Below, one piece after another: positions 4,800-28,253 of a DNA stretch of 64,000 nt. The notes below the pieces were generated by a model. It ran no database searches. It was given only the letters and a program-made list of their open reading frames with translations, and was not told where the DNA came from. Within the stretch, counting starts at the first letter, position 1, and every line of letters starts with the position of its first letter. The position numbers were made by a program, and so were the translations under genes. Source of the DNA: Mycobacterium sp. HUMS_12744610 (lineage in GTDB: Bacteria > Actinomycetota > Actinomycetes > Mycobacteriales > Mycobacteriaceae); assembly GCF_041206865.1 (NCBI RefSeq), contig NZ_JBGEDP010000002.1, forward strand, positions 124,001-188,000, in the 5' to 3' direction.

Positions 4800-5920
4800 G
4801 TGCCTGGCCAATGGCTCATCGACGCGACCGCGGCCATGGGTGACACGTGCAAGAGGAAGCTCTCCGGCCCCGGAGAACCCGAAGCGGCCATCCGTGCACC
4901 GATCGAGGAACTCCTCGCCGCCGCCGGCCAACACCTGTCCCTAACCGTCGTCCCTCACGACGAAGTCCGCGACAACGACCGCGGAGTGCGCCCCGACTAC
5001 GCCATTAGCGTCAACGGCGCGATCACCGGTTATGTCGAAATCAAGAAACCAGGCGCGAACCTCGATCCCGAATCGTTCACCGGACACAACCTCAATCAAT
5101 GGCAGCGCCAACGTGACCTGCCCAACCTCGTCTACACCAACGGCACCGAATGGCGCCTCTACCGCGACAACGAACAAGTCGGCGACCCCGTCCACCTCAC
5201 AGGAGGCACCCTGCGCGCCGCCGGCAACAAGCTGTCCTGCGGCGACAACTTCGAACAGCTCCTCACCGACTTCCTGCGGTGGAAGCCCGCACCGATCACC
5301 GGCGTCATCGCCCTCGTCAGAGCAATCGCACCACTGTGCCGCCTACTGCGCGGCGAGGTCATCGACCAGCTCGCCGACGAGAAGCACGCGATCGCCGCGG
5401 GCGCCCCTGAAAGCGAACAACCCTTCCACGGCCTCGCGCGAGACTGGCGCGCCCTGCTCTTCCCGACCGCCACCGACGACGTCTTCGCAGACGGCTACGC
5501 CCAGGCCGTCACCTTCGCCCTGCTCCTGGCCCGCACCGAAAACATCGACCTGGAGAACGCCGGCGGCCTGCACAACGTAGGCGCCAAGCTCGCCGGCCAA
5601 CACTCACTCATGTCCCGCGCCCTGCAACTGCTCACCGACTACGTCGCAGCAGACTTCAAAGTCACCCTCGACCTACTCGTGCGCGTAATCGGCGCAGTCG
5701 ACTGGCCGAAAGTCCGCTCCGGAAATCGCGACACCTACCTGCACCTGTACGAACGATTTCTTGAGGAGTACGACCCGGACCTGCGCCGACTATCCGGCTC
5801 CTACTACACACCCCACCAGGTGATCGAGCAGATGGTCCGCCTCGCCGAAGACGTGCTCATCCAACGCCTCGACCGCCCCAACGGATTCGCCGACCCCACG
5901 GTGGTCCTCGCGGATCCGGC
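4800..5920 (+). pseudogene. Type ISP restriction-modification enzyme, 5' half
   Basis: From GTG 4800 (a GAGGG sits just upstream; ATG 4836 is an alternative), 373 codons encode the N-terminal half. GVRPDYAISVNGAITGYVEI followed by KKPG is a PD-(D/E)XK nuclease core (D and E-x-K). A helical coupler follows, with SGSYYTPHQVIEQMVRLAED before the methyltransferase. The reading frame breaks inside motif I after VVLADPA. The next 28 codons to the TAG near 6005 belong to the inserted element. The missing half continues at 23622. As it stands the gene cannot make a methyltransferase. Confidence 0.85.
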
Positions 5921-5947
5921 GGTTATGCGAAATTTCTATGTCTCACG
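5921..5947 (+). other. Left end of the transposon
   Basis: Begins GGTTATGCG directly after the gene fragment ending GATCCGGC. TGTCTCACG follows at 5939-5947, 11 bp inside GTTATG. The same two words occur inverted at the right end with 15 bp between them. They are the best candidates for recombinase-binding sites. Confidence 0.65.
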
Positions 5948-6035
5948 AGACACTGTGCACCGTGAACGGTTGAGCTCCCGGCAAGCTGCATCTACGTTCG
6001 CTTGACGCACGCAGCGTTTCACGGTAACCACAGTG

Positions 6036-8627
6036 TTACTCGGTCGCCTCTAGGTACTGCTTGCGCGCATCCTGCAGTTCCTTCCAATGAGTTTCAAGAC
6101 TGGACAGGCTCGGACCGACTCCAAGGGTCGGTAGTGGTTGGGAATGCGCCTCGGTGTATCGGCAGGCGTCCTCGAATATGCGGGTCACAACCTCGGAGGC
6201 GGCCGGCAGTGCGCCTACCTTGATCTCGCGGAGCGTCGTCATTCGGATGTTGGGCTGTAGCCGCTGCGATACGCCCTTCAGCAGCTCCGTTTCCGTGAAC
6301 ACTTCACACCACGACCTGATCCAGCTATAACCCTCGCGGACCAACGCTGCGCGTGCTTCGCCATCCACAGCGCGGGCGGCCTCGATCGTTTTGTTGATGT
6401 GAGATCTAAGGTTTCCGAGTGAATCCCAGCGCGGGCCAGACGCTCTCGTGACCTTGCCCTTCCCGTCCTCATCAGTCACGTGAAAGTAGGCACATCGCTT
6501 CGACGTTTCGAAGAGAGACAACAACGTGGCCGCAAAGAAGACATCGTGCGTAAAGACGATCACCTGATTGTGTTCGGCAAGGCTCGCCATCCGGCGGGCA
6601 ACCTCGTTAATGCGCCTATGGTCCAGGCTGGAGACAGGATCATCGAAGATGACCGGTGCTGTGATCCCCGCCAGGCGAGCCTCAGCAAGGAAATCGGCAA
6701 GCGCCAGTACCTTTTGTTCTCCCTCAGACAGAACCTTGGAAGGCTTGTGCTGACCCGCCAGGGTCTTGCGACGTTGCGCTCGCCCTTGCCGGCCGACGAA
6801 CTCAACCTGGAGCCCAGGTGCCCGCAGTGCGTCGCATTCCTCAGCGAAGAGCTTGTCGAAGCTCTGGTTGATGAGCTGGTCGCTCGCAGCCTTTGCGAGC
6901 TCCGTCACCGACCGACCCAAAGAGGAGAACTTGCCGGCCAAGACACGCAGTTTGTCCGACTCCTTTGCCCGTTCTACCTGGGCCTGAATCGTTGTCCAGG
7001 ACTTCGTCAGCTCCGCGGCCGCCGTCAGCTCCGCTAACTCAAGTGTCTTCTCGCGAAGAGCATCGGCGCGGTTCTCCGCCTGTGTCTTCAGATCCGCGAT
7101 CTCTGCCTCAACGGATGCGTGTGCCGCCGACACGTCAGAGCTGAGGGCCGACAGACCCTCCATGCTGGAGGTGTCTATGGGGCCTAACGCTCGAATCGCT
7201 TCCGCCGCAGCAATAGCGGCGTCTCTGATGCCGGATAGTGCCGTGTCGTATGACGGCTGGCCGGCTCCAGTCCCGTGATCATCTATGAACGCGTTGATCT
7301 CGTTGAGTTGGATCGCCAGGATCGGTGCCGTCGCACTTTTGATGCTCTGTTCCACAGAGGCGATGTCGGAGCTGATCTTGTCGGTGAGGTACTCACCGTA
7401 CTTTGAGACAAGGGCCTTGGCTGGATCCGCCAACGGCTGGCGGCAGTAGAGGCAGCGCTCCGCATCGTGCACGCCAAGCGATTCCAGGTGCATCCTGTAC
7501 CGTTCGCCGCTTGAAACGAACGCATCCCAGGTGTCTTCGGGGGCTGCCGGGAGATCGGCAGCTGCGAAGAGGTCGGTGCGGAAGCTGCGATAATCGGCTC
7601 GGAGCTCGCCGAGTTGCTGGATCTGCGCATTGAGCTCTTCAACGTTTAGTGAGCCGAGCGTGGTGATAGCAAGCACTGCTTGCCGCAACACTCGCTCGTC
7701 TCTCTGTCGCTCTGTGATCTGAGCGGTGATGGTGTCGGCTTCAAGCGCGGCGACTGCTCGGCGCAGGACATCGATCCGCTGGTCCACGTCAGCGCCTCTG
7801 TCGGCCAGCGCGTTGAGTTCGGCGAGGTCCGTAGACGCGCCGAGTGTTTCCACGAGCGGATAGATTGCCGAATCTCGCGGAAAACGATTCAGCAGTGTGG
7901 TTGAGCCAGACGACAGGTTCACGACGGCCTGGTTTATGCGCTCCTGCACGCCTTTGATGGCTGTGTTCACATGATTGAACAGGGCAAGGACAGTCGGGAC
8001 ATACACGTATTCCAGATCGTCGTCCACGTGGAAGTGCACCGCGGGACTGTCGAAGATCGACATCCGTGTGAAGGGCGCTTGTCCGTGCTCACCAGTCCAC
8101 GCAAACTCCTTGACTTCAGGTCCGACCGTGTACTCAACTTTCGCCGAAGTCGGTGCAACTTCGGTCACGGTGATATCGCTGAGGATTGCATCCGCAGTGC
8201 GACTTCCTGCGAGCGCCTTGAAGATTCGTGCGTAACCAGTCTTCCCAGTGCCGTTCTCGCCAAACAAGATGGTCATTCCGGCATGCGGCTCGATCACAGA
8301 ACCCGTCACGATCGCGTTGACGCCGGTTACCTCAGAAAGTCTGGTGATGGCAAGCGGGAGTTCAGCGTCCTCTTCCGACACCTCCGCTGTAAGGCCAGGC
8401 TCCGTTGGAAGGGTTCGTTCATCAAGTCCTTTCTCTTGTCGAAAGAGCGAGTACACATCGTCGATGTCGTCGCTTGACAGGGCTCGACCAGTGCCCAGTA
8501 CACGTCGGACGATTGAGCGGACCCATTCATCCTGCTCATTCGCCCACGTCGCGAGAGTCTCACGCGGGTCGGGAGGGCGCGGCCCCTCGACGTCGACAGC
8601 CTGTGATTCCAGCCCCTCGTCCTTCAC
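6036..8627 (-). CDS. Zinc-hook AAA/ABC-type ATPase (RloC/PrrC-like architecture)
   Basis: An 863-aa protein from GTG 8627. Walker A GENGTGKTG lies near residue 124, a coiled coil spans about 280-590, and a CxxC hook (ERCLYCRQPL) sits near 392 in its middle. The ABC signature LSEGEQKVLALADF is near 633, Walker B VIFDDPVSSLD near 659, and the switch His in VIVFTHD near 694. This order is that of SMC-like AAA_13 ATPases including the anticodon nuclease RloC. The C-terminal 110 residues contain RSWCE (R771, E775) and H828. PrrC/RloC use an Arg-Glu-His triad with Arg and Glu four residues apart, but the His spacing here is longer, so nuclease activity is only a hypothesis. It is the last gene of the cargo operon. 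Confidence 0.75.
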   Translation of the reverse strand: MKDEGLESQAVDVEGPRPPDPRETLATWANEQDEWVRSIVRRVLGTGRALSSDDIDDVYSLFRQEKGLDERTLPTEPGLTAEVSEEDAELPLAITRLSEVTGVNAIVTGSVIEPHAGMTILFGENGTGKTGYARIFKALAGSRTADAILSDITVTEVAPTSAKVEYTVGPEVKEFAWTGEHGQAPFTRMSIFDSPAVHFHVDDDLEYVYVPTVLALFNHVNTAIKGVQERINQAVVNLSSGSTTLLNRFPRDSAIYPLVETLGASTDLAELNALADRGADVDQRIDVLRRAVAALEADTITAQITERQRDERVLRQAVLAITTLGSLNVEELNAQIQQLGELRADYRSFRTDLFAAADLPAAPEDTWDAFVSSGERYRMHLESLGVHDAERCLYCRQPLADPAKALVSKYGEYLTDKISSDIASVEQSIKSATAPILAIQLNEINAFIDDHGTGAGQPSYDTALSGIRDAAIAAAEAIRALGPIDTSSMEGLSALSSDVSAAHASVEAEIADLKTQAENRADALREKTLELAELTAAAELTKSWTTIQAQVERAKESDKLRVLAGKFSSLGRSVTELAKAASDQLINQSFDKLFAEECDALRAPGLQVEFVGRQGRAQRRKTLAGQHKPSKVLSEGEQKVLALADFLAEARLAGITAPVIFDDPVSSLDHRRINEVARRMASLAEHNQVIVFTHDVFFAATLLSLFETSKRCAYFHVTDEDGKGKVTRASGPRWDSLGNLRSHINKTIEAARAVDGEARAALVREGYSWIRSWCEVFTETELLKGVSQRLQPNIRMTTLREIKVGALPAASEVVTRIFEDACRYTEAHSQPLPTLGVGPSLSSLETHWKELQDARKQYLEATE

Positions 8628-8642
8628 GTGACTCCCCCCGGC

Positions 8643-11600
8643 TCACACCGTTACGAGCTGCATCAGCTCGGTGTAGTCGGTGACAACCTCGTACTTGACG
8701 TTCTCGCCATTCTTCTCGTTCAGCGACGCGAAGAACTTCCGGGCGCATTCGATTTTCGCGTCCTCGACTCCTTTGAGCTGAAGCGACGAGAGTGAGCCTT
8801 TGGTTTCGGCGACGAAGTAGATGTGTTTGACGGTTCCCTCGGTGAACGCGATGGCCCAGTCTGGGTTGTAGTCACCGACGGGGGTCGGGATGAAGAATCC
8901 GCGTGGCAGCTTCGCGTAGACGGCAACCTCCTGACTGGTATCGAGTTCGGTGACGAATTTCCGTTCCACTTTGGAATCGGTTACGACGTAGTCGTAGATG
9001 TGCTTCGTCAGCTTGTTGCCGGCGTGCGTGAGGTCCTGCTTGGTCTGGTTCTCGGTGAAAATCGCTGTGTCAAAACGGTCATCGAGCGCATCGTAGGTCA
9101 GGTGCTCGATGATCGCGGTTGCTTTCTGCTCGTTGATGAGTCGGGCAGCTTCGGTGATGAACTGCTCCGGATTGAGCCGGAACTTGGCGAACGTCTCCGG
9201 TGTGACTCCACTGAGGATAGCTGCCGCGCTACGACGGGTCAGCTGCGTTTTCTCGGTGATTTCACCGAGTAGGTCGTATTTGACCTGGGATGCGGCCGAC
9301 ACTGTCGCTGTGTGGGTGGCGGTGCTGGATACGTCGAATCCGGCACCGCTGGTGAGGTCGTCAGCTTCGAGCGAGTCGCGTTGCGTGCCCGCCTGGACGA
9401 CGTACTGCATCGCGGCGACCTTGAGATGCTTGTCGAGTGCGTGAATGCATTTGGCGATGAGCTCGGATGAGTCGAACTCGACCTGATAGACAGCCTTGTG
9501 GTTGATCCGGCGCCACAGGGCCTGGAACTCCTTCTTGGCGAAGTTGGCCTCGTTGAGCGGGATCTTCTTCGGCTTGCGGTCGTCGGTCGGGATCGGCACG
9601 TCGATGTTCAGCGAGTCGACCAAGGGCAAGAGGAACTTGAGCACCGGTTTCAGGGCCTCTGATGTCGGCTCTGCCAGGGTGCCAGCCTTCTCGCTGCCTT
9701 GTACTCGTCAGAAAGGGTGTCATCGTCGTTCAGGTAGTCGTTCTTGATCAGGTACCTATAGAGGGCCTGCGCAAGGGCTTCCTCGACCACCGACTCACCG
9801 TCTTCGGTCTGAATTGTCTTGCCGGCAAAGAACTTCACGCTTGCCTTGCGCGGCCGCGCGGCCAGCGAGTCGGAGATTTCCTTTTGCAACCCGGCGACGA
9901 AGTCGGTGTAGGACTCATCGGTAACGACCGTCAGCTCGTTGATGTCGTGCACCGTGACGGGGTTGTCCATACGTTCGCCGTGTTGGTCGACGGCCAAGCG
10001 CAGGCCGCGGCCGATCTCTTGCCGCCGAGATACGGTGTTATCGCTTTTCTTGAGCATGCCCATCACGAAGACGTTGGGGTTGTCCCAGCCTTCCCGAAGG
10101 GCGGAGTGGGAAAAGATGAAGCGAACAGGCTCGGCCAGCGATAGCAGCCGCTCCTTGTCCTTGAGGATCAGATCGTAGGCGTCGACGTCCTTGGATTGAC
10201 CCTTCTCGTCACCTGTCGCGTGCACCGGCCCGTCAACCGCATGCCTGGTCTTCTTGTCGATCGAGAAGTAGCCCTCGTGCACTGCTCGGACGGCATCGCG
10301 TCGCAAGTAAGCCTGGTAAGCCACTGTTGCGGGATCCAGTTCCAGCTCCCCAAGAACCTCATCGACGATCGCGGTGTACTCATCCTCGAAGACCCGGGCA
10401 TAGTCACCGAGCGTGTCCTCGCGGTCGTAATCGCGGTACTTCGCCACCTCATCAATGAAGAACAGCGATAGAACCTTAATGCCTCGGGTGAACAGTTCGC
10501 GTTCCTTGTCAAGGTGCGCCCGAATCACCTCCCGGATCTGAATGCGGCGCTTGGCTTCCTCAGTGACGTCACGGTCGGAGAGCTGTCCAGCGATGACGAC
10601 ATCACCGTTGCTGAGTTCGATGATGTCGCGGTTGGCGTCGATGTCGGTGATGAAGAGACCCTTGTACGCCTCGATGCCATTGGAGATGTCATGGAGGTTG
10701 GCGCCCACGTCGAGGCGCTTGACCTGTCGCGCGATCGACCCACCTTTGGTCTGTACCTCGATCTCCACGCGGGCCCGCGGTTTTGCGCCCTTGGCGATCT
10801 CGATGGCATCGAGATACAGGTAGGCCGTCGTGCCGGCCAGCCCCTTCACGGTGATGCCTCGCACCGCGATCTTCTTGACCAACTTCTGGTTGTACGCATC
10901 GAGGGCGTCGAGGCGGTGAACTTTGGTGTGCTCGACCTTGTGAGTTGCCGAGTAGCGCAGCACCATGAGTGCATTGAACCGCGACAGCGCTTCTAATGAC
11001 TTTGGTGCACTGATCTTTTGCGGTTCGTCGATGATCACGATGGGACGGTTTGCGCTGATGACATCGATGGGACGTCGCGACTGGAAGTCGTCGAGTTCGT
11101 CGTAGATGCGGCGATTATCCTTGCTCGTCGAATTGAACGCCTGAATGTTGATGATCATCACCTGCACCCCGGCGTCCGAGCTGAATCGCTCCAACTCATG
11201 CAGCTGAGATGAGTTGTAGATGAAGGACCGAGGCTTGCTGCCGTACGTCTGCTGGAAGTGCTCGGCCGTCAAATCAATTGACTTCTTCACGCCCTCGCGA
11301 ATCGCGACCGACGGGACTACGATGATGAATTTTGACCAGCCGTACCGCTTGTGCAGTTCCATGATCGTCTTGATGTAGACGTAGGTCTTTCCGGTACCGG
11401 TTTCCATCTCGACGTCGAGATTGGGAGCACCCGGAGCGGCTTTGCTGTCCACCAGCTTGTCCGACAGCGGCAGGTTTCGCAGCCGTTGAACGCGCTGAAC
11501 GTTCTCTAGCAACTGCTCTGGTGTCAACGCGATCTCGGCATTTCGTAGACCCGAGTCGGAGGTCGAGCTCGCGTCAAACAGCGTCGGTGCCGTAGCCGGC

Positions 11601-11722
11601 TTCGCCCTGCCCGGGTCGATCCGATAAGAGACGCCATCATATTTCGGCTGTCCGGCGAAGGCGTCGACAACCGCGTCCACGGCATCGGTCTGATACTGCT
11701 GAATCTTGAACTGAAGCTTCAT
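8643..11722 (-). pseudogene. Type III restriction endonuclease subunit (Res), frameshifted
   Basis: The first 690 codons (11722-9650) hold the SF2 helicase: [13 protein letters not shown] as Walker [10 protein letters not shown] as motif [22 protein letters not shown] and the QEIGRGLRL motif VI. The frame ends after [13 protein letters not shown] one-base shift near 9690 continues as [20 protein letters not shown] and then 333 codons (9644-8643). Those carry a PD-(D/E)XK nuclease (YNPDWAIAF and YFVAETKGS). The helicase and nuclease therefore lie in different frames. The change is either inactivating or a sequencing indel. It is cotranscribed 5 nt after mod. Confidence 0.85.
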
Positions 11723-11727
11723 CAGTG

Positions 11728-13599
11728 TCAGATGGCCTTCACATCCGTCGCCGGCGAGATCTCACGGAAGATCTGCTCCGCATTGATCCGAGCGTCGTCG
11801 GATGCAAAGCCGGCATCGCGGAACACCGCCCGCAGTGGCTCGCGCTTGGCGATGGTTCGCACCAACTCCGGGCTCACTGCTGAATCGAAACAGGCGATAA
11901 GTGCGCCGTCTTCAACAACAAAGACGTCGTAGCATTCGTGCTTCTCGACCACGATCGGCATGGTCAGTTCGAGACCCCAGTCCAGCAGCACCTGGAAAAG
12001 CAGATCCTCCGCGGATCGACCTGGCTTCACGCTGCTCTCAAGTTCAGTGAGTGCTTGCTGGCCAGTCTCGTCTGGGGCCCGCAACACGTCAGCCATACTT
12101 GTTGTATCGACCTTGAATGTTCGGAATCCACAGTCGATGTCAGGTGCGGTTAAGCCTGCACGGTCTTTTACTTCGGTGCCAGCTTTCCGAATCCGCTGGC
12201 GAGCGATCTCGCTAATAGAACCAAAACCCGCCTTGCCTGCAGCCGACTCCGGCGCAACCTTCTCGGGGAACTGAACGACTGCGAATCGCCTAGAACCACC
12301 ATCGTCAGCGTTGAGCCGCATGACAGCTTCGGCCGTCGTACCGCTGCCGGCAAAGAAATCAAGTACTAGGCAATCACGCGCTCCGGTCGATCCGTACCGG
12401 ATAAGGCGTTTCAGCAACGCGACGGGCTTTGGATAGTCGAATATCCTCTTCGATCCCAGCATCTTTGCGACTTCCTCGCTACCATCTTTCGTGGTCCCAG
12501 CGTCGAGGAGAATCGAGCTGGGTGTCCGCGTGTCGCCGCGCTCGACCCGCTCGTTTAGAAACAGCTTCCGTTTTGGCGCTGAGTCGCCCCTCAACCCGAA
12601 CTTGACTCGGCCGTCCTCCATGAGCTGCTGCATAGATACACGGTTGATAGCCCAGGATCGGCCAGCCGGTGGCCAAAAACCCTGTCCGGTGGCCGGATTA
12701 ACTACTTCGTAATGTGTATCACCGCCTGGCTTATTGGCATCAAGTGGGACCAGCTTCCACGGACCTCGCGGATCGGAGTCTGTGTTCGAATACTCGTCTG
12801 CCCGCAGGGGCTCACCCCAGAAAGTTAAGAGTTCGCGGTTTCGCGCATACACGAGAATGTAATTGTGGTTCGCGGAGATTTCCTGGTCGTCAGATATTGA
12901 AGTGCGGGACTGCCAGATGATTGTCGCAACAAAATTTTTCGCGCCGAATACTTCATCCATGACGATTCTAAGGTTGGCGCCCTCCTGATCTCCGATCGTC
13001 AAGAACATCACGCCGTCATCGGTCAGCAGGTTTCGTGCCAATCGAATCCTCGGGTAAATCATCGATAACCAGTCAGAATGGAAGCGCCCATTAGTCGACA
13101 GATTCGCGACCAACCTGGCGCCGGAGGTGTCAACGAATCCTGATTGAGCTAGGTAGGTGGGCGGCGAGACCGCGAACGAATCGTGGTAAACGAGGTCGGT
13201 ACCCGTGTTGTATGGAGGGTCTGCAAACAGCACCTTTACTTTGCCCAGGTACGACTCTTGAAGAAGCTTCAATGCGTCGAGGTTATCGCCCTCGATGAAC
13301 AGGTTCTTGGTAGTGTCGAAGTCAACCGACTCTTCGCGAACCGGCCTGAGAGTCTTTGCAATCGGCGCGTTGGCGGCGAATGCCGCTTCGCGCTTACCGG
13401 GCCAGTCGAGCCGGTAGCGCTCCTGCGGGCCTTCGACAACATGATCCGACAGTTCCTGGCGCAGCAGGTCGAAGTCGATGGCCTTCTTGGGATTGCCGTC
13501 GGCGTCGAGCGTCTCGGTGATGACGTTGGGGAACAGCTCGGCGAGCTTCTCGATATTGGCCTCGGTCAAGTCGGGCGATGTCATGCGAAGTTTCTCCAC
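11728..13599 (-). CDS. mod: Type III DNA-methyltransferase subunit (Mod)
   Basis: A 623-aa beta-class adenine methyltransferase. Motif IV is FADPPYNTG near residue 126 and motif I comes after it ([19 protein letters not shown] near 412), the order usual for type III Mod proteins. A target-recognition region lies between. Start is GTG 13599 or ATG 13584 ([14 protein letters not shown]); both have a plausible ribosome-binding site. It lies 3 nt after DUF4391 and 5 nt before res, forming the core of the operon. The reading frame is intact, so modification may persist even if Res is dead. Confidence 0.9.
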
Positions 13600-13602
13600 C
13601 TG

Positions 13603-14268
13603 CTACCTCTGCTGTTCCAGTTCTGCTTGCTTCGTTTTCAGGGCGCGCCGAAGCTCTACCTTGCGGTTGAGTTGCGGCTCGGCGCGGAGTTTGCGCTCCA
13701 GGGAGGCGACCTCGCGTTCGAGCTTGCGCACGGCCTGGAGTCTGGCAGCGACGTCTGACAATTCCTCTCCTGGCCGTGCTGATACCGGGGTCAGCGGCGC
13801 GAGGAGTGCGGTGTACAGGGATGGCAGGCTGATCGCTGTTGGTAGTGGCTGCCGCTCGGCATCCGGGGTTTGCCAGTCGGTCGTGTAGTAGGCGCTGAGC
13901 TTGGGCGTAGCGGGGCCGACCTGCTTGTGCGATGCAGCCATCCGGACTCGCTGCTCGTCTCCTTCGCCGGTGACTATCTCGAAGATGATGGGGGTCTTCA
14001 CCGCTTTGTCGATGGCGGCGAGCACGGACTCGCTGACATCGTCGCCCTTTGTGTCGATCTGGAAAACTTGGATCTCGGGGACGTCTGTGTTGCCGGGCAG
14101 GTTGATGGTGGCTTGGGCGAGTTTGTAGGCCCAGGTGATGCGCTGGACTTCGGAAACGAATTTGTCACGTACTGCACCGGAGACAGTGCCGTGTTCGTAG
14201 AACTTGGTTTTCGGGACGGTACGACCGAATTTGGCGGCGGCGGGCCAGCGGTAGAGCAGGGCCGTCAT
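13603..14268 (-). CDS. DUF4391-family protein
   Basis: A 221-aa protein from ATG 14268, overlapping the helicase stop as ATGA. It begins MTALLYRWPAAAKFGRTVPK. The VQRITWAYKLAQATINLP and QVFQIDTKGDD segments and the C-terminal coiled coil rich in Glu, Arg and Leu (about 160-221) fit DUF4391. That family is regularly found between a helicase and type III mod genes in restriction islands (my recollection, not searched). Molecular role unknown; it may be a structural partner of the helicase. Confidence 0.7.
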   Translation of the reverse strand: MTALLYRWPAAAKFGRTVPKTKFYEHGTVSGAVRDKFVSEVQRITWAYKLAQATINLPGNTDVPEIQVFQIDTKGDDVSESVLAAIDKAVKTPIIFEIVTGEGDEQRVRMAASHKQVGPATPKLSAYYTTDWQTPDAERQPLPTAISLPSLYTALLAPLTPVSARPGEELSDVAARLQAVRKLEREVASLERKLRAEPQLNRKVELRRALKTKQAELEQQR

Positions 14269-17200: not shown

Positions 17201-17534
17201 ATTCCGCGCATTCACGCGCGATGGCCCGCTGCGTCAGCTTGTTGCGCAGACGGATCTCGAACTGCGAACCGTAAAGCGACGACTCCCCGTTGGACCCCGG
17301 CGGAATGAAAAACTGTCGGCGTTCCTTGGGCAGCTGATCAGTAGCCGCCGCGGCGACAAACGACGGCGAGGTGAAGACGAACTCGAGCTCTTCGACGCGC
17401 TCCAACTCCTTGCGCAGCGCCTCAAACGCGAAGATGGAAAACGTCGATGCAGCGATACGCAGCTTCGACCCAGCCTGCACCTCAGCCTTGAGATCATCGC
17501 CGAGGAGGTCGTTGACGTTGTCGATGATGTGCAT
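14265..17534 (-). CDS. SNF2-type helicase with N-terminal PLD-like domain
   Basis: A 1089-aa protein. Residues 1-160 resemble the phospholipase-D-like domain found in front of some defence helicases (IAASTFSIFAFEALRKEL and FVVVDDKVAY). Helicase motifs follow: Walker A ILADSVGLGKTFTAL near 272, motif II VVIDESHNFRN near 361, motif III LMLSATPVNNRFNDL, and C-terminal IGTDVISEGQNLQDC and IIQRFGRIDRIGS. No HKD nuclease motif is evident. It starts 2 nt after the small HTH gene and overlaps DUF4391. Expected role is ATP-driven translocation on DNA as part of the modification-restriction complex; this is inference. Confidence 0.85.
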   Translation of the reverse strand: MHIIDNVNDLLGDDLKAEVQAGSKLRIAASTFSIFAFEALRKELERVEELEFVFTSPSFVAAAATDQLPKERRQFFIPPGSNGESSLYGSQFEIRLRNKLTQRAIARECAEWVRRKVRFRSNRTGAPMQQFVVVDDKVAYQPIQGFTSADLGYERGNAVSNVVTKLDDAPMARQYAALFDQIWNNPTQLEDVTQAVYDHIASVYAENSPARIYFLILYNLFSEFLDDISEDVLPNDRTGYQETQVWQSLYNFQRDAATGIINKLETYNGCILADSVGLGKTFTALAVIKYYELRNKSVLVLAPKKLAENWTNYNANLTTNIFAQDRFNYDVLAHTDLSRTKGESLGLRLDRINWGNYDLVVIDESHNFRNADYAEEKESRYQRLMRQVIREGVKTKVLMLSATPVNNRFNDLKNQLQLAYEGESENLSQHLNISTTVEKVFSDAQRVFNEWSKLDPEARTTDRILQMLDFDFFELLDSVTIARSRKHIQAFYDTTEIGTFPQRLPPRSIREPLSDLPDVPAFNEIFGQLQALTLAVYTPLSYVFPSRIGKYEDLYNVKGGTARSNIGQLGREQGLKKLMTVNLLKRLESSVEAFRLTLAKIEGAVDNTLIRIKSRTGSLNDLSVDFSGLDLDVDDEDDANVEALSFGEKIKIDLDDIDVESWQRDLWNDRETLRELLDEMRRVTPDHDLKLQALKRLIEDKAANPLNPLNRKALIFSAFADTAEYLYKQLAPTLSNSGLHTALVTGGAHAAKTTLGTGYDFQQVLTLFSPRSKQRHLTMPKDTGELDVLIGTDVISEGQNLQDCDYLVNYDIHWNPVRIIQRFGRIDRIGSTNAQIQLVNFWPDISLDEYINLKERVENRMVIADLAGTADDNVLTLEGSDAAFRKEQLRKLQDEVIELEDVRTGVSITDLGLNDFRMDLLGYLKKAGDLATAPKGLHAVIPADPSRGLHPGVLFALRNVDANENINRGNRLHPHYLVYLDDNGNVIADHTEVKHLLDLIRAGCRPHEEPVTEVTRVFNAATREGAEMGKYSELLTAAIRSMIDVTEERDIDSLFSDGHTTALTQAIAGLDDFELTAFIAIVDASEGTT

Positions 17535-17536
17535 GT

Positions 17537-17722
17537 TCAGTCCTCCGCGGCCGTCGCCCCGTTACGACGAACCCAATCGTCGACCTCAGCCGCCTGGAAC
17601 TTCCACAGGCGCCCCACCTTGTGAGCGGGCATGGCCTTCTCGGCGATCCAGCTGTAGATCGTGTCCTTGGTGACGCCGAGGTGGGTGGCGATGTCGTCGG
17701 CTGACAGCCACGGCTCAGCCAC
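17537..17722 (-). CDS. Small helix-turn-helix (excisionase-type) DNA-binding protein
   Basis: A 61-aa protein. GTG 17722 is preferred because AGGAGG lies 6 nt upstream; a TTG at 17728 is possible. PWLSADDIATHLGVTKDTIY, then a Trp and KVGRLWKFQAAEVDDWV, is the classical MerR/Xis-type HTH_17 pattern. It heads the cargo operon, 2 nt before the helicase. It could regulate the operon or assist excision. Its distance from the recombinase genes slightly favours a regulator. Confidence 0.8.
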   Translation of the reverse strand: MAEPWLSADDIATHLGVTKDTIYSWIAEKAMPAHKVGRLWKFQAAEVDDWVRRNGATAAED

Positions 17723-17845
17723 AGGCAACCTCCTGACTATCGACCCCCTGCGTGCCGACTGGTCGATCTTAGCGGGATGAACCGATTTAGACCGTGTATT
17801 TGCGGGTTCAACCGACTCTGTCGAGGTCGGAAAGTCAGCCTGTGA

Positions 17846-18262
17846 TCACCACCGCCGTCGCGCATGACGGCCCTGCAGCGGAGTGACGGTTCCGCGCGGC
17901 ACGGCACCGCGACTCGCTTGTAGCTGTGAGTGGAGCTCGGCGATCACGGTTACCGCGGCTTGGTTCTTTCGTTCGAGGTCGGTGTTGCTTTGCCGCAACG
18001 TCGCGATGGTCTGCTTGAGCTTGGTGACTATTCCCTGCAACTCGATGATCTGGGAGTCGCGCGGTGCGACCCGGGCGCCGACAGCGGTATTCCAGTCGGC
18101 GAGGACGGCGTCGGCCCGGTTCATGGTGGCGCGGCTGACACCGGCTTCGACGTGCAGGTTGGCTTTGGTGAGCCGCCCGTCGGTCCGTCTGGATTGGCCT
18201 GTGAGGAGTCGCTGCATGGCGTCGCGCAGCTTCTTCTCGGACGCAGGGCTGACGGCGGTCAC
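17846..18262 (-). CDS. DUF6262/TnpC-like coiled-coil accessory protein
   Basis: A 138-aa protein from GTG 18262, overlapping the stop of the third recombinase as GTGA. The N-terminal half has an HTH-like segment (TKANLHVEAGVSRATMNR) and the C-terminal half is a coiled coil (IIELQGIVTKLKQTIATLRQ). Tn554 encodes a similar small third protein, TnpC, which biases transposition; DUF6262 proteins occupy the same place next to actinobacterial recombinases (family knowledge). It is the last gene of the recombinase operon. Confidence 0.7.
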   Translation of the reverse strand: MTAVSPASEKKLRDAMQRLLTGQSRRTDGRLTKANLHVEAGVSRATMNRADAVLADWNTAVGARVAPRDSQIIELQGIVTKLKQTIATLRQSNTDLERKNQAAVTVIAELHSQLQASRGAVPRGTVTPLQGRHARRRW

Positions 18263-20323
18263 TTGGGGTCCTGCTGGGTGATTCGTCGGACATCGGCGAG
18301 TTGGGCTTCGAGGCGCTGGCGGTGGACGGTGGCCATCTTCTTGTCCTTGAGTTTCTCGACGAGGTCGGCCTCCTCGTGGCGCCAGACCGGGAAGTGTTTG
18401 TCGGTGATCACTGAGTTTCGGCAGGTGGCGGGTTGGCACATGCTCGGGATGGGTCCGCCAGCTTTAACTGCGGCGGACGCGCCTTCCAGGCAGAGTGCCT
18501 TGTTCGGGTCGCCGAGGCAGTGGTTGAGGGTGCCCAGGCGGATCGTGGCAAACTCGTCGCGCAGCAGGTTTCGGAGCATGCGTGTCGCCTACCGCGGCGG
18601 TGCTGCTCGCACGGTCGGTGACGCTGTCGAGGCTGTTGACGAATGTGGCGGCGCCAGGGCCGCGCACTTCTCGGTCACCGTTGGCGTGCCGTGCCCAGTC
18701 GGCGACGAGCTCTCCGGCAGCGGCCTCCTTGGCGTGGTGTTCGAACTCTTTGGCCCACTCTGGTGTCGGTGCCCCATAACCGCTGGTGGTCGCGTTGGCC
18801 AGTGCCCGCGTGGCGTTGTGCTTGAGGGTGATTCCGAGGGCGATCTCTCCGTCGGGTTCGTTGGCGGTGAGGACGGCCATGGTTCGGCGAAACATATGCG
18901 GCGCCAACGCTGTTGCGAGGATCGGCTCCAGCCCGTTACGGGGTGAGTGGTCATTGACCCAGTTGATGAACGACCGAATCTGTTCGTGCTGGTCGAACCC
19001 GGCGAGGTCACGGTTGACGCCGGTGCGGACACTGCCGAACAGCCTGCCTGGGTCACGGGTAATGCGTTCTGCGACTTCGAGGGCGCGAACGACCGGCGGG
19101 CTTACCCACCAGCGCTGTGGTGTACCCGCACCCGTCTGGCCTTTATGGAGGTTGCTGGTGATCGCGGGGGCGCCATAGTGCGTGCCGATCGCTCCGGCGG
19201 CGAGTCCTTGGACTTCGCTGTCCCGCATCATCGTCATGATTGCGACGAAAATATAAGCAGCGTTGCGCATTTGGGTGAGTTCTTTGCTTACGATGACGCG
19301 GTCGAATCCGCTGATCCATGGTCCGCGTGTCCCGTCGGGTCGGTCGACGACCGTGGGTGGAACGGCGGAGTAGCCGAACTTGGTGGGCAAGCCGGCGGCG
19401 ATCGCGTCGCGGACTCGTTGCCGTCGGGCTGCTCCGCTGCCGTTGTAGAAGTTGACTGCCCGGATCCGCGGCGTGGTGCATAGCGCCAGGCCGTCCCAGT
19501 TGATCTCGCCGGCTTTTCCGCGTCCAAGCGTGTAGATGTGCAGCGGAATGAAACCGTCGGGTGATGTGAGCCAGGAGTCGATTGCGCGGTCGATGGTTTG
19601 TGCCGCCGGCCATTTTGCGGGAGGTGGGCTGGCATCCAGTGTGTCGATCTCGTCGCGGGCGGCAAGAACGTCAGGGGCGAATACGTCGATATAGGTCCAG
19701 CAGGCGCGAATCAGTGGCCAGAATGTGTCTGGAGGGATGACCGGTGTCTTGATCTCGCCCGAGCTGCCAGTTTTGGAACGCCCCACCGGTACCCGCAGGC
19801 CGCCGTTGTGCATCAGCGGCCCGAACGCCACCAGGTGGCGCAGGAGATCGTTCGCTGACTTCTCGGCGGTGGCTGCGCGGGTGGCGCGAACCGATGCGAG
19901 ATACGCCTCGCTGTCGTCATCGGTCCATAGCGACAGGTCGGCCGTGTAACCACGGTCCTCAGCCCATTTCGCGAGATACCGCAGCTCGGCGAGGGCGTGC
20001 TGGATCGACTTGATCTTGTAGGGCCGGTTGGACCGGTAGACGTGCGCTTCACGAAGGACGGTATGGGTTGGTTGCAGCATCGCCATTGCCAACGTCTTGG
20101 CGATGGACACCCAGGCCTCGGGGAGGTCATCGAAACGCAGATGCGCACGAGACGCGCTCAGGTTAGGGGCGATTCCGCCGGCGGTCAGATCCCAGCGGGG
20201 CATATCGTCGAATCGCAGCTCGGGACCGGGTGCGATCCGGCGAGCCGCCGGTAGCACGGGTTCGTCGGGAGCGAAGGGCGGATCCCACGCCGCCGCTATC
20301 GGTGATGTGAGTTGGCGGGTCAC
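18259..20323 (-). pseudogene. Third tyrosine recombinase of the trio, one frameshift
   Basis: The first frame (to about 18585) covers the catalytic domain: MTMMRDSEVQGL (Arg), LAPHMFRRTMAV (HxxR), a KHN segment and ATTSGYGAPTPEW (candidate Tyr). After about 18580 a shift leads to MLRNLLRDEFATIRLG, continuing to 18259. That part carries a Cys-rich tail (C-x4-ALC, then MCQPATCRNSV and HFPVW), as also seen in the second recombinase. The conserved tail in another frame is evidence of a one-base indel, though re-initiation at ATG 18579 would also give a separate tail protein. Start ATG 20323 overlaps the previous stop. Confidence 0.75.
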
Positions 20324-22134
20324 TGTTCAGCCCTTTGTCCGAACGGTCGATGAAGGTGAGCGGTTTGTTGGCGCGCTGCTTCGATGTGGTCACTGGTGAA
20401 TTCGGTGAGGATGGCGTCGACGTTGATGCGTTGCTGGCCGTAGACTTCGCTGAACTGGATTGGGGGCATGGTCTTTTCGATGCCGTCCAGCACGTTGCGG
20501 TATATGAGGAGGCGTGGCAGGTGGTCGCGGAAGACGACCGCGTTTCGGCACTGCAAGCACAGCGACGGCGAGGCGTGGCACAACGATCCTGTCTGCCCGA
20601 CCGGCGGATCGTAGGGGTCTCGGCATGCTGCAAGTGTCAGCTGCTGCTCTGTGGGTGATTCTTCGGCCACCGACATGGCGAGGGCGGCCACATCGGAGTC
20701 ATTTGGGCCAGCGGCGACGTCGGCGGCCGTCGCGTCGATAAACATCGGTCCGTTTGATGCGCGTTCGAGGACTTTGCGCTGGGCGCGCAGGACTGTCTGT
20801 GCCGCGATGGTGTGAACCGTGGTGGTTTGGGCGTAGTGGCCCCGGAAGACTTCGACGGAGTGGTCGTCACCGGCGGCGCCGTTGAGGGTGCCGAGCAATG
20901 CGGCCCGCGCGCTTTTCACCGTCTTGCGGATCCTACGCATATCGTGCGGTTCGCTGATCGTCAGTCCGTGGCGCTCGATGAGCTTGTTGAGCGAGTTGGG
21001 GCATCCGAAATGTCTTGCACGGATCACATATTGGGGATACTCGTCGTCGCGCCGGTCCCGTGCAGAGCGGACCCCTGTCACCCAGAAGAGTGGCTCGTCG
21101 GGAGTGAGCGCGTGCGCGTGCTGCATCGCGTGTGCGGCGCGTCGAAGCAGGTCGCCGGCCTTCCATCCCCAGGATGGCTGTGGCGTTGAGGACAGGGTGT
21201 GCCAGCGGATTCGTTGGGCCCGTAGCTTGGTCGCTCGGACACGGACGGAGGAGTCGCCGATCTCGATGTCACTGCGCAGAAGTCGGCGGCTCTCCTCAGG
21301 TGCCCACCCCGTTTGTAGGTGGAGCAGCACTCTGATGGCGAGAAGGTACTCGTCCTCTGGGGTGAGGTATGCGCCTATGGCCGTCACCAGCGGGCGTGCC
21401 TTCAATCGGGCATCGCGGTTGACTCCGGACTCTTGGTCGACGTCGCATCCGTTCAGTGCTCGACGCGGCCCGGCCAGATGAACGTGGAACGATTCGTCGT
21501 AGGGCAGGTTCCGCAGGGCCCACAGGACGTTCTCCACTTGGTTCCAGCCGTGGCTGCGGGGATCCCTTCCGGCGTTCAGCAAGGTGTTGCCGCGGGCGAG
21601 GCGTGTTTCGGTGTCGCGCACGATCGTTCGGCATGTCTGCTCAAGGTGGAGTCGTTCGTCGTTGCTGAATTCGTCGAGCGGTAAGCCCTCCCATGCGCTG
21701 CCGTCCAAGACCCATCCGCTGGTCCAGTCCGCGAGCACACCGTCGTGCACCCCGTGTGATTGGAGATATCGGGCGACGTGATTGCGCAACTCCATGCCGA
21801 GGTCTTTCGCGTGCACGCTGGGAGGCGGGAAACGCAGGACCATTGCCGATTCCCAGTCGTGCAGTCGTCGCGCAACCTCCCCGCCGTCGCCAGACAAGGT
21901 GAGAAATCGGTCGGCGCGGTCGGTCAAGAATTCGCCAACTCGTCTGATGACCCCGCCTTGACGAGTGATTGTTCCGGGGGTCAGGTCGAGATGTTCGGCG
22001 GCCTCTTTCCAGGCGTCGGCCAGCTCGGCGACCAGCCGTGTGGCGACATACTTACTTGGGTCGATGCGCGCCGACTTCATCGGTCCGCCGGGCGGGAAGA
22101 GCACCATGCGCGGTTCACGGTCAGCGGGCGTCAC
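20320..22134 (-). CDS. Second tyrosine recombinase (TnpB-like), probably not catalytic
   Basis: A 604-aa integrase-family protein, start ATG 22134 overlapping the previous stop as ATGA. The catalytic domain is recognisable from TGWAPEESRRLLRSDIE, PHDMRRIRKTVKS and FRGHYAQTTTVHTIAAQT. The first Arg is not in its usual TGxR place, and the nucleophile position in TTxxYxH reads His (TTTVHTI). The C-terminal Cys-rich region is CRDPYDPP, then SLCHASPSLCLQCRN. It may be a structural partner of TnpA. In Tn554 both TnpA and TnpB are required (established). Confidence 0.8.
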   Translation of the reverse strand: MTPADREPRMVLFPPGGPMKSARIDPSKYVATRLVAELADAWKEAAEHLDLTPGTITRQGGVIRRVGEFLTDRADRFLTLSGDGGEVARRLHDWESAMVLRFPPPSVHAKDLGMELRNHVARYLQSHGVHDGVLADWTSGWVLDGSAWEGLPLDEFSNDERLHLEQTCRTIVRDTETRLARGNTLLNAGRDPRSHGWNQVENVLWALRNLPYDESFHVHLAGPRRALNGCDVDQESGVNRDARLKARPLVTAIGAYLTPEDEYLLAIRVLLHLQTGWAPEESRRLLRSDIEIGDSSVRVRATKLRAQRIRWHTLSSTPQPSWGWKAGDLLRRAAHAMQHAHALTPDEPLFWVTGVRSARDRRDDEYPQYVIRARHFGCPNSLNKLIERHGLTISEPHDMRRIRKTVKSARAALLGTLNGAAGDDHSVEVFRGHYAQTTTVHTIAAQTVLRAQRKVLERASNGPMFIDATAADVAAGPNDSDVAALAMSVAEESPTEQQLTLAACRDPYDPPVGQTGSLCHASPSLCLQCRNAVVFRDHLPRLLIYRNVLDGIEKTMPPIQFSEVYGQQRINVDAILTEFTSDHIEAARQQTAHLHRPFGQRAEQ

Positions 22135-23531
22135 GACGACTGCGCCTCCAGCTCCAGCTCGTCCAGAACGTAGGTGGCGTAGTCGCGGGTATCGTCGCTC
22201 CAGGATTCAAACGCCCGCTGGATCAGCTCATCTGACTCATCGACAAACCGGAGGTAGACCATAGTCGTAGACGGGCTCGCGTGGCCGAGTAGACGCTGTA
22301 GAGTTAAGAGCGGGTTGTGGACGATGTGTTCGCTGATCGTACCGAATCCTGTTCTCGTCCTGGACTGTTCGAGTAGCATCGCGCGTCGCTGCAGGCTGCG
22401 CAGCATGACCACAGCGAATGTATGTCTCAGGTCATGCGGTGTGACCGCGGGAGGCATGGTGGGTGGGGAACTCCCGAACGCGGCAAGGCGGTCGTTGGCG
22501 TCCTCAAAGTATTGATGCCAGCGCCGCTGCGACGGCGGGCGCCCGCCCTTACCCACAAATAGCGACAACGGCTCGATATACCCAGCCGCGTCGACTCTGA
22601 CCAGGAGCCGTCGCACTTCGGGAGGGATCGCAGCGAAGTCCTCCCGCGTGTCGATCCCTTTTTGACGGTATGTGAGCTTGCCCGCGGTCGGGTCGATGTG
22701 GGTGGCGACTGCCAGCGTCGGCAGCCTGCGCCGCAGAGCGGTCTGAGCTTTGCGGACAAGGGATTTACGTTCTGTGGCGCGGTAGAGTTCGACTGCCTTG
22801 ACGGTCGAGGCTGGGATATAGACCCGCCGGCGGCGCGCATTCTTCGCACACGCTTCCAGCACCAGCGAAGCGCCGCCGTCGGAAGACGGGATCTCGGCAT
22901 CCAGCAGCGTGGACCACTCGGTGAGGCGCATGCCGGTGGTCAGGGCCAGGTCGACCGCGCACACGTTGCGGACGGTCGATTGACCACGATAGGAGCGGTC
23001 GACCTCTCCTGAGGGCAGCTCTCCACCAAATCCGATATTGCGCAGGGCCAGCCATTGCGAATGTGACAGCGCTCTGACGTCCATCTCCGTGCGTGGCGTC
23101 CTGGGCGTCACGACTGACCTGCTCCCGACCTGGATCCAGGGCAGGCTGTCGCGTTGGCCAGTCTCGTACAGGTAGGTGAATAGCGCCCGAATGACGACAA
23201 GATGTCGAGACCAAGAACTGGGTGACACGCCGTTGGCGAGTCGGTGCTTGCGGAATGCAACGAGATCGGGCTCTGAGACATCAAGCACCCCGATGCCTCT
23301 CGTGTCCAAGAACCGTCCGAACTCCAACGCATCACGGGCGTACGCGTAAATCGAGTTCGTCCGCAGGTTCTGGCAGTACAGCCGCAAGAAGGTGCACCAC
23401 GGCTCCATTGGCCGCATCGCGTCATCGACGAGTATGGGAGTGCCGCAGGCCAGCCGACGGTCGGCCGGGCCAACATCGATCTGATACTCGCTTTGCTCGA
23501 CCGCTGCCCAATCCGCGAAGTACAGCTGCAA
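22131..23531 (-). CDS. First tyrosine recombinase (TnpA-like), complete active site
   Basis: A 466-aa integrase. Arg I is in TTGMRLTEWSTLLD, the HxxR in TPHDLRHTFAVVML, and the last His and the nucleophile in LLGHASPSTTMVYLRF. The N-terminal half has a SAM-like core-binding domain (YCQNLRTNSIYAYARDALEF). It is the first gene of the recombinase operon, reading inward from the right end about 60 bp away. It is the best candidate for strand exchange at the GTTATG ends. Confidence 0.88.
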   Translation of the reverse strand: MQLYFADWAAVEQSEYQIDVGPADRRLACGTPILVDDAMRPMEPWCTFLRLYCQNLRTNSIYAYARDALEFGRFLDTRGIGVLDVSEPDLVAFRKHRLANGVSPSSWSRHLVVIRALFTYLYETGQRDSLPWIQVGSRSVVTPRTPRTEMDVRALSHSQWLALRNIGFGGELPSGEVDRSYRGQSTVRNVCAVDLALTTGMRLTEWSTLLDAEIPSSDGGASLVLEACAKNARRRRVYIPASTVKAVELYRATERKSLVRKAQTALRRRLPTLAVATHIDPTAGKLTYRQKGIDTREDFAAIPPEVRRLLVRVDAAGYIEPLSLFVGKGGRPPSQRRWHQYFEDANDRLAAFGSSPPTMPPAVTPHDLRHTFAVVMLRSLQRRAMLLEQSRTRTGFGTISEHIVHNPLLTLQRLLGHASPSTTMVYLRFVDESDELIQRAFESWSDDTRDYATYVLDELELEAQSS

Positions 23532-23588
23532 CGTGTCACCTCCCGCTGATCAATCCGCCCCACCGTATTCGCCGGGGGCTACTTGGTC

Positions 23589-23621
23589 CGTGAGACACGC
23601 CCAGAGAGAGCACATAACAGC
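23589..23621 (-). other. Right end of the transposon
   Basis: Read inward on the minus strand this is TGTTATGTGC, then TGTCTCACG (23597-23589). It mirrors the left end. The host gene resumes at 23622 with CGCAGGCACCGGCGG. Confidence 0.65.
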
Positions 23622-25836
23622 CGCAGGCACCGGCGGCTATCTGCAACAAGTGATCGAGCACGTCGCAAAACGCGTCGCGGACCGCGACGGCCAAGGCGCG
23701 GTCGCCGGCGCCGTTACCGACCTTGCAACACGCCTCTACGGATTCGAACTGCAGATGGGCCCATTCGCCGTCGCCGAGCTGCGCGCCACCGACCTGCTTG
23801 CCGACGTCGGAGCCAGCCTCCCAGATCGGGGACTGGGCCTTTTTGTCACCGACACCCTCGACGACCCCTACGCCGAACAAACCCAGCTCGGCTCCGGACT
23901 AGAGCTCATCAGCCGCTCCCGCTCCCGCGCGGCCAAAGTCAAGTCAAAGACGAAAGTCACTGTGGTTATTGGCAATCCGCCCTACCGCGAACGTGCAGAA
24001 GGCATGGGAGGATGGATCGAAAACGGCGACGGCTCAGACCCCTACCGCCCCCTCGACGACTTCCGCGCCGCCGGCAACGGCCGAGCAGAGTATGTCCTCA
24101 AGAACCTCTACGTGTACTTCTGGCGATGGGGAACCTGGAAAGTATTCGACGCCAACGCCAGCATCCCCAACGGCGACACCGGAATCGTCTGTTACATCAC
24201 AACCTCCGGCTACCTGCGCGGCCCCGGCTTCAAAGGCATGCGAGAGTACCTGCGCCGCAACACCACCGAAGGTTGGATCATCGACGTCTCACCCGAAGGC
24301 ATCCGACCCGACGTCGCTACCCGCATATTTCCCGGAGTCCAACAACCCCTTGCCATCGCACTATTCACCCGCACGCCCCACTGCGACCGAGACGTCCCCG
24401 CCACCATCCACTACACTTCCGTACACGGCCGCCGCGCCGACAAATACCGAGCGCTCGCCAGCCTCACCCTGACCGGCGCCCAGTGGCGTCCAGCCCGCAC
24501 CAGCTGGCAAGCCCCGTTCACCCCAGCCGCCGACACCGACTGGGACGCCTATCCAGCCCTCAATGACCTACTTCCATGGAGCACCCCCGGTGTCAAATCA
24601 AACCGCAACTGGGTCACCGCACCCACAGCCGTAGTACTGCGCGACCGGCTCACACGGCTCATCAGCGAAGCTGACACCACACGAAAAGCTAACCTATTCA
24701 AAGAGACTCGGGATCGCACCCTGTCATCCACGGCCACACCCCTAGGCCCAGGCACCGAACAGCACACCGACCGGCCACTCCGCGCAGAAAGCCTCGCCTA
24801 CGCCGCCAACGCGCGCATCGTGCAATACGGATACCGCTCGTTCGACCGGCAGTGGATCATCGCCGACAACCGACTCCTCGATCAGGCGCGGCCACCGCTG
24901 TGGGCCGCCGCACGCCTAGCCAACCAGGTCTTCACCGTCGAACTCCACTCCAAGCCCATAGCCAACGGGCCCGGCGTCGTATTCAGCTCCCTCATCCCCG
25001 ACATGCATCACTTCCGCGGCAGCCAAGGCGGCCGAACCCTGCCCCTCTACCACCCCGGGGGTCGACCCAACTTCGCCAACGGCCTCCTCGGCGCGCTCTC
25101 AACGATCACTGGAACAACCGTCACAGCTGAAGACCTACTCACATACATCGCCGGCGTCGCAGCGCACCCCGCCTACGTAGATCGCTTCGCCGACGAACTC
25201 ACCACGCCAGGTATTCGTATACCGATCACCACCGACGCCACCCTATTCCAACGGGGAATTGACATCGGCCGGGACATCATCTGGCTACACACCTACGGCG
25301 ACCGATTCCCAGCCGGACGCAACGGAATCCGATACCAATCAGACGACGCCCGCCGTATCACCAACCAGACCACCGTCACCACCATCCCGAACGCCATCAC
25401 CTACAACCCTGAAACGGCCACCGTACACATCGGATCAGGAACGTTCGGCCCCGTCCCACAACAGGTATGGGACTACACCATCGACGACAAACCGGTCATC
25501 AACGCATGGTTCAACTACCGCAAAGCCAACCCCACCGGCCGCAGAACTAGCTCCCTCGACGACATCAACGCCACCACCTGGCCCACCGAATGGAACGCAG
25601 AACTCATCGACCTCCTAACGATTCTCGCCCGACTCGTGGACCTACACCCTGTGCAAGCCGAGCTGCTCGACGAGATCCTCTCCCACCCTGTGGCCAGCTA
25701 CACCGACCTCGCCGCCGCCGGTGTCACCTGGCCCACCAGCAGCGCCGACCCACAACGCAAACCCGACTACACCACCCAAACCGACCCCGACGACACCGGC
25801 CCAGGCCAACTCGGCTTCAGCTTCGGCAGCCGCTAG
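23622..25836 (+). pseudogene. Type ISP restriction-modification enzyme, 3' half
   Basis: In frame with the 5' half once the transposon is removed. It begins AGTGGYLQQVIEHVAKR-like sequence of motif I, followed by motif IV NPPY (VIGNPPYRERAEG, near 23965-24000), the long N6-adenine methyltransferase domain and a target-recognition region. The end, LLDEILSHPVASYTDLAAAG, is followed by a Pro/Asp-rich tail. It has no start codon of its own that would give motif I. With the first half it encodes 1111 aa, shorter than LlaGI-type enzymes (about 1500 aa) because no helicase lies between nuclease and methyltransferase. Confidence 0.85.
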
Positions 25837-28243: not shown

Positions 28244-28253
28244 GCGGACTCGC

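Follow-up and report, generated by a model that had tools for sequence, protein, structure and literature searches.

The window analysed here is a 64-kb stretch of contig C2 (250,868 bp), part of a 6.4-Mb genome assembled in 3 contigs. It contains a 17.7-kb mobile element of the tyrosine-recombinase type, flanked by 6-nt cores and by the two halves of a type ISP restriction-modification (R-M) gene. Matches to known plasmids cover at most 4% of a 25-kb stretch of C2 adjoining the element. The features are listed below with their sources in brackets; C1 denotes the chromosomal copy of the element in the same genome, and SEs are strand-biased circularizing integrative elements.

4800–5916, plus strand: 5' part of the target gene, the N-terminal half of a type ISP R-M gene, stopping where the Pro codon of motif I starts (Pfam HSDR_N/N6_Mtase)
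5917–5922, plus strand: far-end 6-nt core, interpreted as brought from the previous insertion site, by the SE/Tn554-like rule
5923–23617, no strand assigned: mobile element, TTATG...CATAA (limits from a 17,704-bp alignment with the C1 copy, and from relatives)
5923–5949, plus strand: far terminal end, TTATG...TGTCTCACGAG (sequence, relatives)
6036–8627, minus strand: AAA ATPase, PADLOC PDC-S06 (Pfam, PADLOC)
8643–9644, minus strand: C-terminal part of a type III Res protein (RE_endonuc), with a broken frame here where the C1 copy has a single frame of 1026 aa
9650–11722, minus strand: N-terminal part, a ResIII helicase, of the type III Res protein (Pfam, PADLOC)
11728–13599, minus strand: type III Mod methyltransferase (Pfam, PADLOC)
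13603–14526, minus strand: DUF4391 protein, 218–221 aa in three relatives (Pfam)
14265–17534, minus strand: SNF2-type helicase, 1089 aa (Pfam, PADLOC)
17835–18251, minus strand: ginD-like small gene, ~138 aa, in fourth position as in SEs and GInts (found by tblastn in 10 of the 19 sources)
18464–20323, minus strand: large tyrosine recombinase resembling ginC, 619 aa here against 688 aa in the C1 copy, with a frame break close to the C-terminal end
20320–22134, minus strand: ginB-like degenerate protein of the tyrosine-recombinase fold, 604 aa (box I Arg absent in 20/20)
22131–23531, minus strand: ginA tyrosine recombinase, 466 aa (PF00589 and PF02899; R-H-R-H-Y kept in 18–19 of 19)
23588–23617, minus strand: recombinase-side terminus, TTATG...TGTCTCACGG on that strand (sequence, relatives)
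23618–23623, plus strand: recombinase-side 6-nt core, interpreted as the target's own; the C1 copy has the same six bases as its far-end core
23624–25836, plus strand: 3' part of the target gene, the remainder of motif I through the stop, Type_ISP_C (Pfam, PADLOC, homologues)

Both junctions lie within the SAM-binding motif I of the type ISP gene, where the original prediction had placed the transposon, and its joined length for the halves (4800–5920 plus 23622–25836, 3336 nt) is confirmed as 1112 codons with the stop included. Pfam assigns HSDR_N and the beginning of N6_Mtase to the left half, and Eco57I and Type_ISP_C to the right half, and a single PADLOC IIG model covers both in adjoining stretches (11–353 and 351–1065). 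The gene is of type ISP, and its homologues carry a nuclease-side N-terminal half, an Eco57I-type methyltransferase and Type_ISP_C on one chain. A search with the right half (E ≤ 1e-60) matched 8 of 396 genomes of the genus, one being the source genome itself, and the element is absent from this gene in all seven others. The uninterrupted homologue that had been proposed as a check is available several times over, as the left half (residues 1–373) and the right half abut without a gap in six of the seven, with identities of 82–93% and 71–80%, respectively. The homologue in L082 is 93% identical to the left half, its alignment ending exactly at the junction; among the other abutting homologues, that in L083 has a single in-frame stop, and the right-half match in L088 is limited to the first 136 residues. 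The seventh homologue (L087, 27–33%) has partial matches on either side that end before the junction and is therefore uninformative on abutment, with its motif uninterrupted. Inspection of the motif region in five of the seven showed it to be uninterrupted each time; the other two, L085 and L086, are on the opposite strand and were assessed by tblastn alone.

The inverted words that had been reported at the two ends are real, both ends reading TTATG...TGTCTCACG in inverse orientation, and DNA hairpins at these ends scored no better than shuffles. The C1 copy is 99.98% identical to the window copy over 17,704 aligned bases and interrupts an HsdM-type gene (N6_Mtase), again at motif I. Insertion at motif I is thus not a matter of chance, since this genome has an independent, near-identical copy at that motif in a different gene. 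The two copies differ in their end bases and in two small indels, which break the ginC and res frames in the window copy, both frames being whole in C1; these indels may reflect sequencing error or decay. The MBM element, in another genome, is 97.7–99.1% identical to that of C1 over two long stretches and occupies a third, different methyltransferase gene. Some variation at the ends was also seen. In the M. barrassiae element (L022, 9773–9900) the recombinase-side end is present twice with N between, perhaps a scaffolding artefact, and the elements of ENV421 (L019, 1703–2594) and G124 (L057, 3349–4239) have ~0.8 kb extra from the end to ginA, which in ENV421 contains a 120-aa ORF.

Counting loci found twice only once (such as Skermania, which equals G1125), we identified 19 distinct loci with a GinA at least 44% identical, 17 of them at 58–100% and two, on Microbacterium plasmids, at 44–45%. 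Contig edges truncate three of them (PO1, ENV421 C128 and a fragment in G124 C1), leaving 16 readable junctions. In 14 of these the element sits in motif I of a DNA methyltransferase, in line with the expectation that other copies would share the target, and all 14 insertions have the same codon position and orientation across four enzyme classes: type ISP (window, Skermania, M. barrassiae, G124a and JOB5), IIG/MmeI-like (MBM, SCH5224772, G167, Microbacterium No. 7 and M. paraoxydans), HsdM-type (C1 and G032) and PglX (ENV421 and G124b). Pfam and/or PADLOC were applied to 13 of the 14 targets, and all were methyltransferases; M. barrassiae and G167 were assigned by PADLOC alone, 304 of the 992 residues of the G124b target were given to the family check, and the G124a target was assigned to type ISP because it starts with residues resembling those of the other ISP genes. 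A swap of halves between the two G124 copies was considered and rejected, as each pair of halves matches one gene family. Among more than 100 GinA matches, nine relatives at 30–37% with unmapped ends had no similarity to the 14 target proteins in the sequence stretches covered.

The loose DNA pattern GAYCC..GG..GG has 611 matches in the genome, compared with 156 for the reversed control, so this pattern alone does not explain the choice of site. With a 27-nt site profile in a leave-one-out design, seven of eight full sites have at most one equal in 513,256 background windows taken from 22 sequence stretches; the window site is the weakest, with 22 equals, or one per 12 kb.

The two remaining readable junctions, in G1210 and G1145 (GinA 58%), belong to a sister clade and fall in a ResIII/DEAD helicase gene, immediately behind its TATPGHHPG motif; the gene is uninterrupted in a Dietzia plasmid (L109). 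The original prediction had singled out homologous elements at unrelated targets as evidence against it; these occur only at a distance, in the two 58% relatives that cut the helicase gene, and the motif-I target is therefore a trait of certain clades. A tree of GinA was built with 21 rows, of which 10 have a methyltransferase target. The two helicase-targeting rows fall inside its methyltransferase-using group, so the methyltransferase label needs two changes, for example, two gains, or one gain followed by a loss; support is modest (80/77) for the branch on which the Microbacterium rows join. The splits made by these sister elements at the TATP motif of the helicase gene, near 9537 in L097 and near 9553 in L099, present another conserved-motif target.

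Among the recombinases, GinC keeps R-K-H-R-H-Y in 22/22 aligned relatives. A structural model of GinC from a relative (L018; pLDDT 83.6) has Cre and then FLP/XerH as top Foldseek hits, and the GinB model (pLDDT 78.2) has XerH and the Tn1549 Int, none of these hits reaching E ≤ 0.001 and all with low TM-scores; sequence searches of both proteins against solved structures were uninformative. The nearest named records of GinA are from Mycobacterium and Skermania. No GinA relative was found in viral contigs, and the order-level search (E ≤ 1e-45) returned 1 of 397 genomes, the source genome itself, while the class-level search (E ≤ 1e-50) returned 2 of 394, the source genome and one 37% relative.

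The cargo contains restriction genes, as had been predicted, and R-M genes of two kinds are present in all six mapped cargoes. In the window copy the cargo consists of the SNF2 helicase, the DUF4391 protein, the type III Mod and Res proteins and the AAA ATPase. Five mapped elements encode a type III-like system, counting the two copies of the source genome as one, and the sixth (G124a) a type II R-M pair comprising an adenine methyltransferase and a XamI-type nuclease. The cargo plan of the window recurs in MBM, SCH5224772 and ENV421, judged from ORF length and DNA similarity, and in JOB5, where annotation agrees as well. The middle of mod (~1 kb) does not align in MBM, SCH5224772, ENV421 and JOB5, elements that are otherwise similar, perhaps through exchange of the target-recognition part; this holds even for MBM against C1, which agree at 98–99% outside it. 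At motif I, all 14 targets read D-P-(A/F/S/T), and the cargo methyltransferases read in three of the six mapped cargoes depart from that form, with DFF in C1, DLF in SCH5224772 and DPG in G124a, a departure that possibly avoids self-insertion.

Both ends were available in eight elements, whose cores were read with their flanks against named homologues uninterrupted at the motif. In all four decidable elements (C1, SCH5224772, G124a and JOB5), only the core on the recombinase side, of the two, encodes the native residues. C1 has two HsdM-type homologues, both reading DPACGTGG, of which L106 has the identical 6 nt; SCH5224772 has one, reading DPACGCGNF; and the three ISP homologues found via the JOB5 gene, which serve for JOB5 and G124a and two of which are without an annotated gene, have F in 3/3 (DPFT in two, DPFV in one). 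For window, MBM and ENV421 (3/8) either core yields a plausible motif, and the nearest homologue of the window gene agrees with the recombinase-side core in 5/6 bases and with the far-end core in 4/6; G124b, with homologues at 26–48%, is not among the decidable elements. In SEs and Tn554-like elements the rule is likewise that the element has the target's own core at the recombinase side and the donor core at the far end (PMC10214605 and PMC12486829). At its far end, C1 has the same six bases that the window copy has on the recombinase side. The far-end core of G124b matches the recombinase-side core of G124a in the same way, and these two elements are 99.96% identical over 9,613 bp. From the rule and these identities we infer two parent-daughter pairs, with C1 descending from the window copy and G124b from G124a; both parents are still in place. 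The core of the G124 pair also occurs in Skermania, so a chance match is not negligible for this pair.

Part of what is said here of Tn554 is general background. The Tn554-family assignment made originally holds for the brought-in core mechanism, but not for the gene complement, which comprises four genes with a degenerate recombinase in second place, as in SEs. SEs have been reported from Gammaproteobacteria, at a few selected locations (PMC10214605). Judged from the description there, they share the order active/degenerate/active large/small (intA-tfp-intB-srap), the 6-nt core with their own at the recombinase side and the donor's at the far end, and the retention of copies, and differ in target class and host group. 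GInts share the four-gene ginABCD module at one end reading inward with cargo behind, a likeness read here from gene order and strand, as well as a 6-nt staggered exchange and the common presence of R-M cargo (PMC5385486). In GInts, however, GinA and GinB are complete and the first Arg is missing from GinC, whereas here the second protein lacks it. The GInt targets named in that paper are intergenic sites or the genes for ssb, ribonucleotide reductase and ABC transporters, mostly at gene ends, in contrast to the internal conserved motif split here (PMC5385486). GInts are described with flanking imperfect direct repeats of 10–17 nt; a comparison by eye picked out only the 6-nt cores here. The gene order here is closer to that of SEs than to that of GInts. 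Tn554/Tn552-II elements share a fixed target and a brought-in core of 6–7 nt from the donor flank (PMC12486829 and PMC10214605) but have three genes, tnpABC, and other targets. RITs likewise have three adjacent tyrosine recombinases but, according to PMC10214605, all three are catalytic proteins of 315–410 aa, compared with 466, 604 (degenerate) and 688 aa here. The kind of element is thus already known (Tn554/SE/GInt-like), and the motif-I target class is without description in the open-access literature searched, subscription papers lying outside its scope; the main text of the GInt paper (PMC5385486) has no word starting with "methyl".

Taken at the sequence level, the exact repeated target, the core pattern, the presence in two genomes of a pair of near-identical copies with cores that suit a parent and its daughter, and the restriction cargo indicate that this Tn554/SE/GInt-like element very probably recognises the DNA encoding motif I of DNA adenine methyltransferases and inserts by exchange over a 6-nt core. 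The predicted four-gene module of an active GinA, a degenerate GinB, an active large GinC and a small GinD would recognise the codons of D-P-x-x-G-x-G in type ISP, IIG/MmeI-like, HsdM-type and PglX genes, with strand exchange over the 6-nt core on the P-x-x codons. The four proteins may act together as in SEs and GInts, moving the element by copy-out/copy-in through a circle that would bear the recombinase-side core and leaving the split target gene presumably inactive.

The original prediction also held that clean excision restores the gene, so that the element would serve as an on/off device for reversible silencing of restriction. The gene halves do abut when set against homologues, and an empty site was obtained in some GInt strains (PMC5385486). 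Both parent-daughter pairs nevertheless appear to retain the parent copy, and SEs give no empty site (PMC10214605), which together favour copying over clean reversible excision; moreover, a far-end core left behind would alter residues in several targets, and the ginC frame is broken in the window copy. We therefore regard such a switch as improbable. Copy-out is the likely course, although a parent could equally remain if the element left one cell by excision and entered a different one. Fortuitous landing is a further possibility, with defence islands acting as recombination hot spots and no sequence-specific targeting. Defence genes do cluster and are often exchanged, yet the identical nucleotide position and orientation in 14/14 methyltransferase genes of four enzyme classes contradict this explanation, which we consider virtually untenable.

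There are two views of what the target means for the element. In one, the motif-I codons serve as an attachment site into unrelated restriction and BREX methyltransferases; insertion would disable these and install the element's own R-M system, and the far-end core would record the previous immunity gene. The target would then be favoured because the element's own system replaces the resident restriction, whose silencing would benefit the element. We hold this view tentatively, at slightly less than even confidence. In the other, motif I is merely a conserved DNA word in dispensable, freely exchanged genes, offering low-cost sites in many hosts without any anti-defence role. The genes struck here (ISP/IIG, HsdM-type and PglX) look like genes that hosts can generally do without; the sister clade, for its part, inserts at the conserved TATP region of a helicase gene with plasmid-borne relatives, again a conserved motif in accessory DNA. 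R-M genes in 6/6 mapped cargoes, of two kinds, are unpredicted by a pure model of this sort, but the argument is weak, since R-M systems are often carried by GInts anyway (PMC5385486). The chance of this second view also falls a little short of one half.

If motif-I recognition is correct, the specificity of a mobile element would rest on a conserved protein motif of bacterial immunity genes, which would explain how one recombinase set enters many unrelated genes. It would also provide a testable case of an element against defence, in which the cores record past insertions and movement may be read from sequence. The principle, of which the clade inserting at a helicase motif is a second case, may extend to other Tn554/SE/GInt relatives.

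Around ISP genes, we also observed that the window gene is followed at 25853–29069 by two ORFs (796 and 271 aa) without a Pfam or PADLOC match, and then by an Mrr-type gene at 29527–30654. On an M. poriferae plasmid, an ISP gene 99% like that of JOB5 (L110, 3959–5791) is without the first ~106 residues of the C-terminal half and abuts DUF87 and SIR2 genes.
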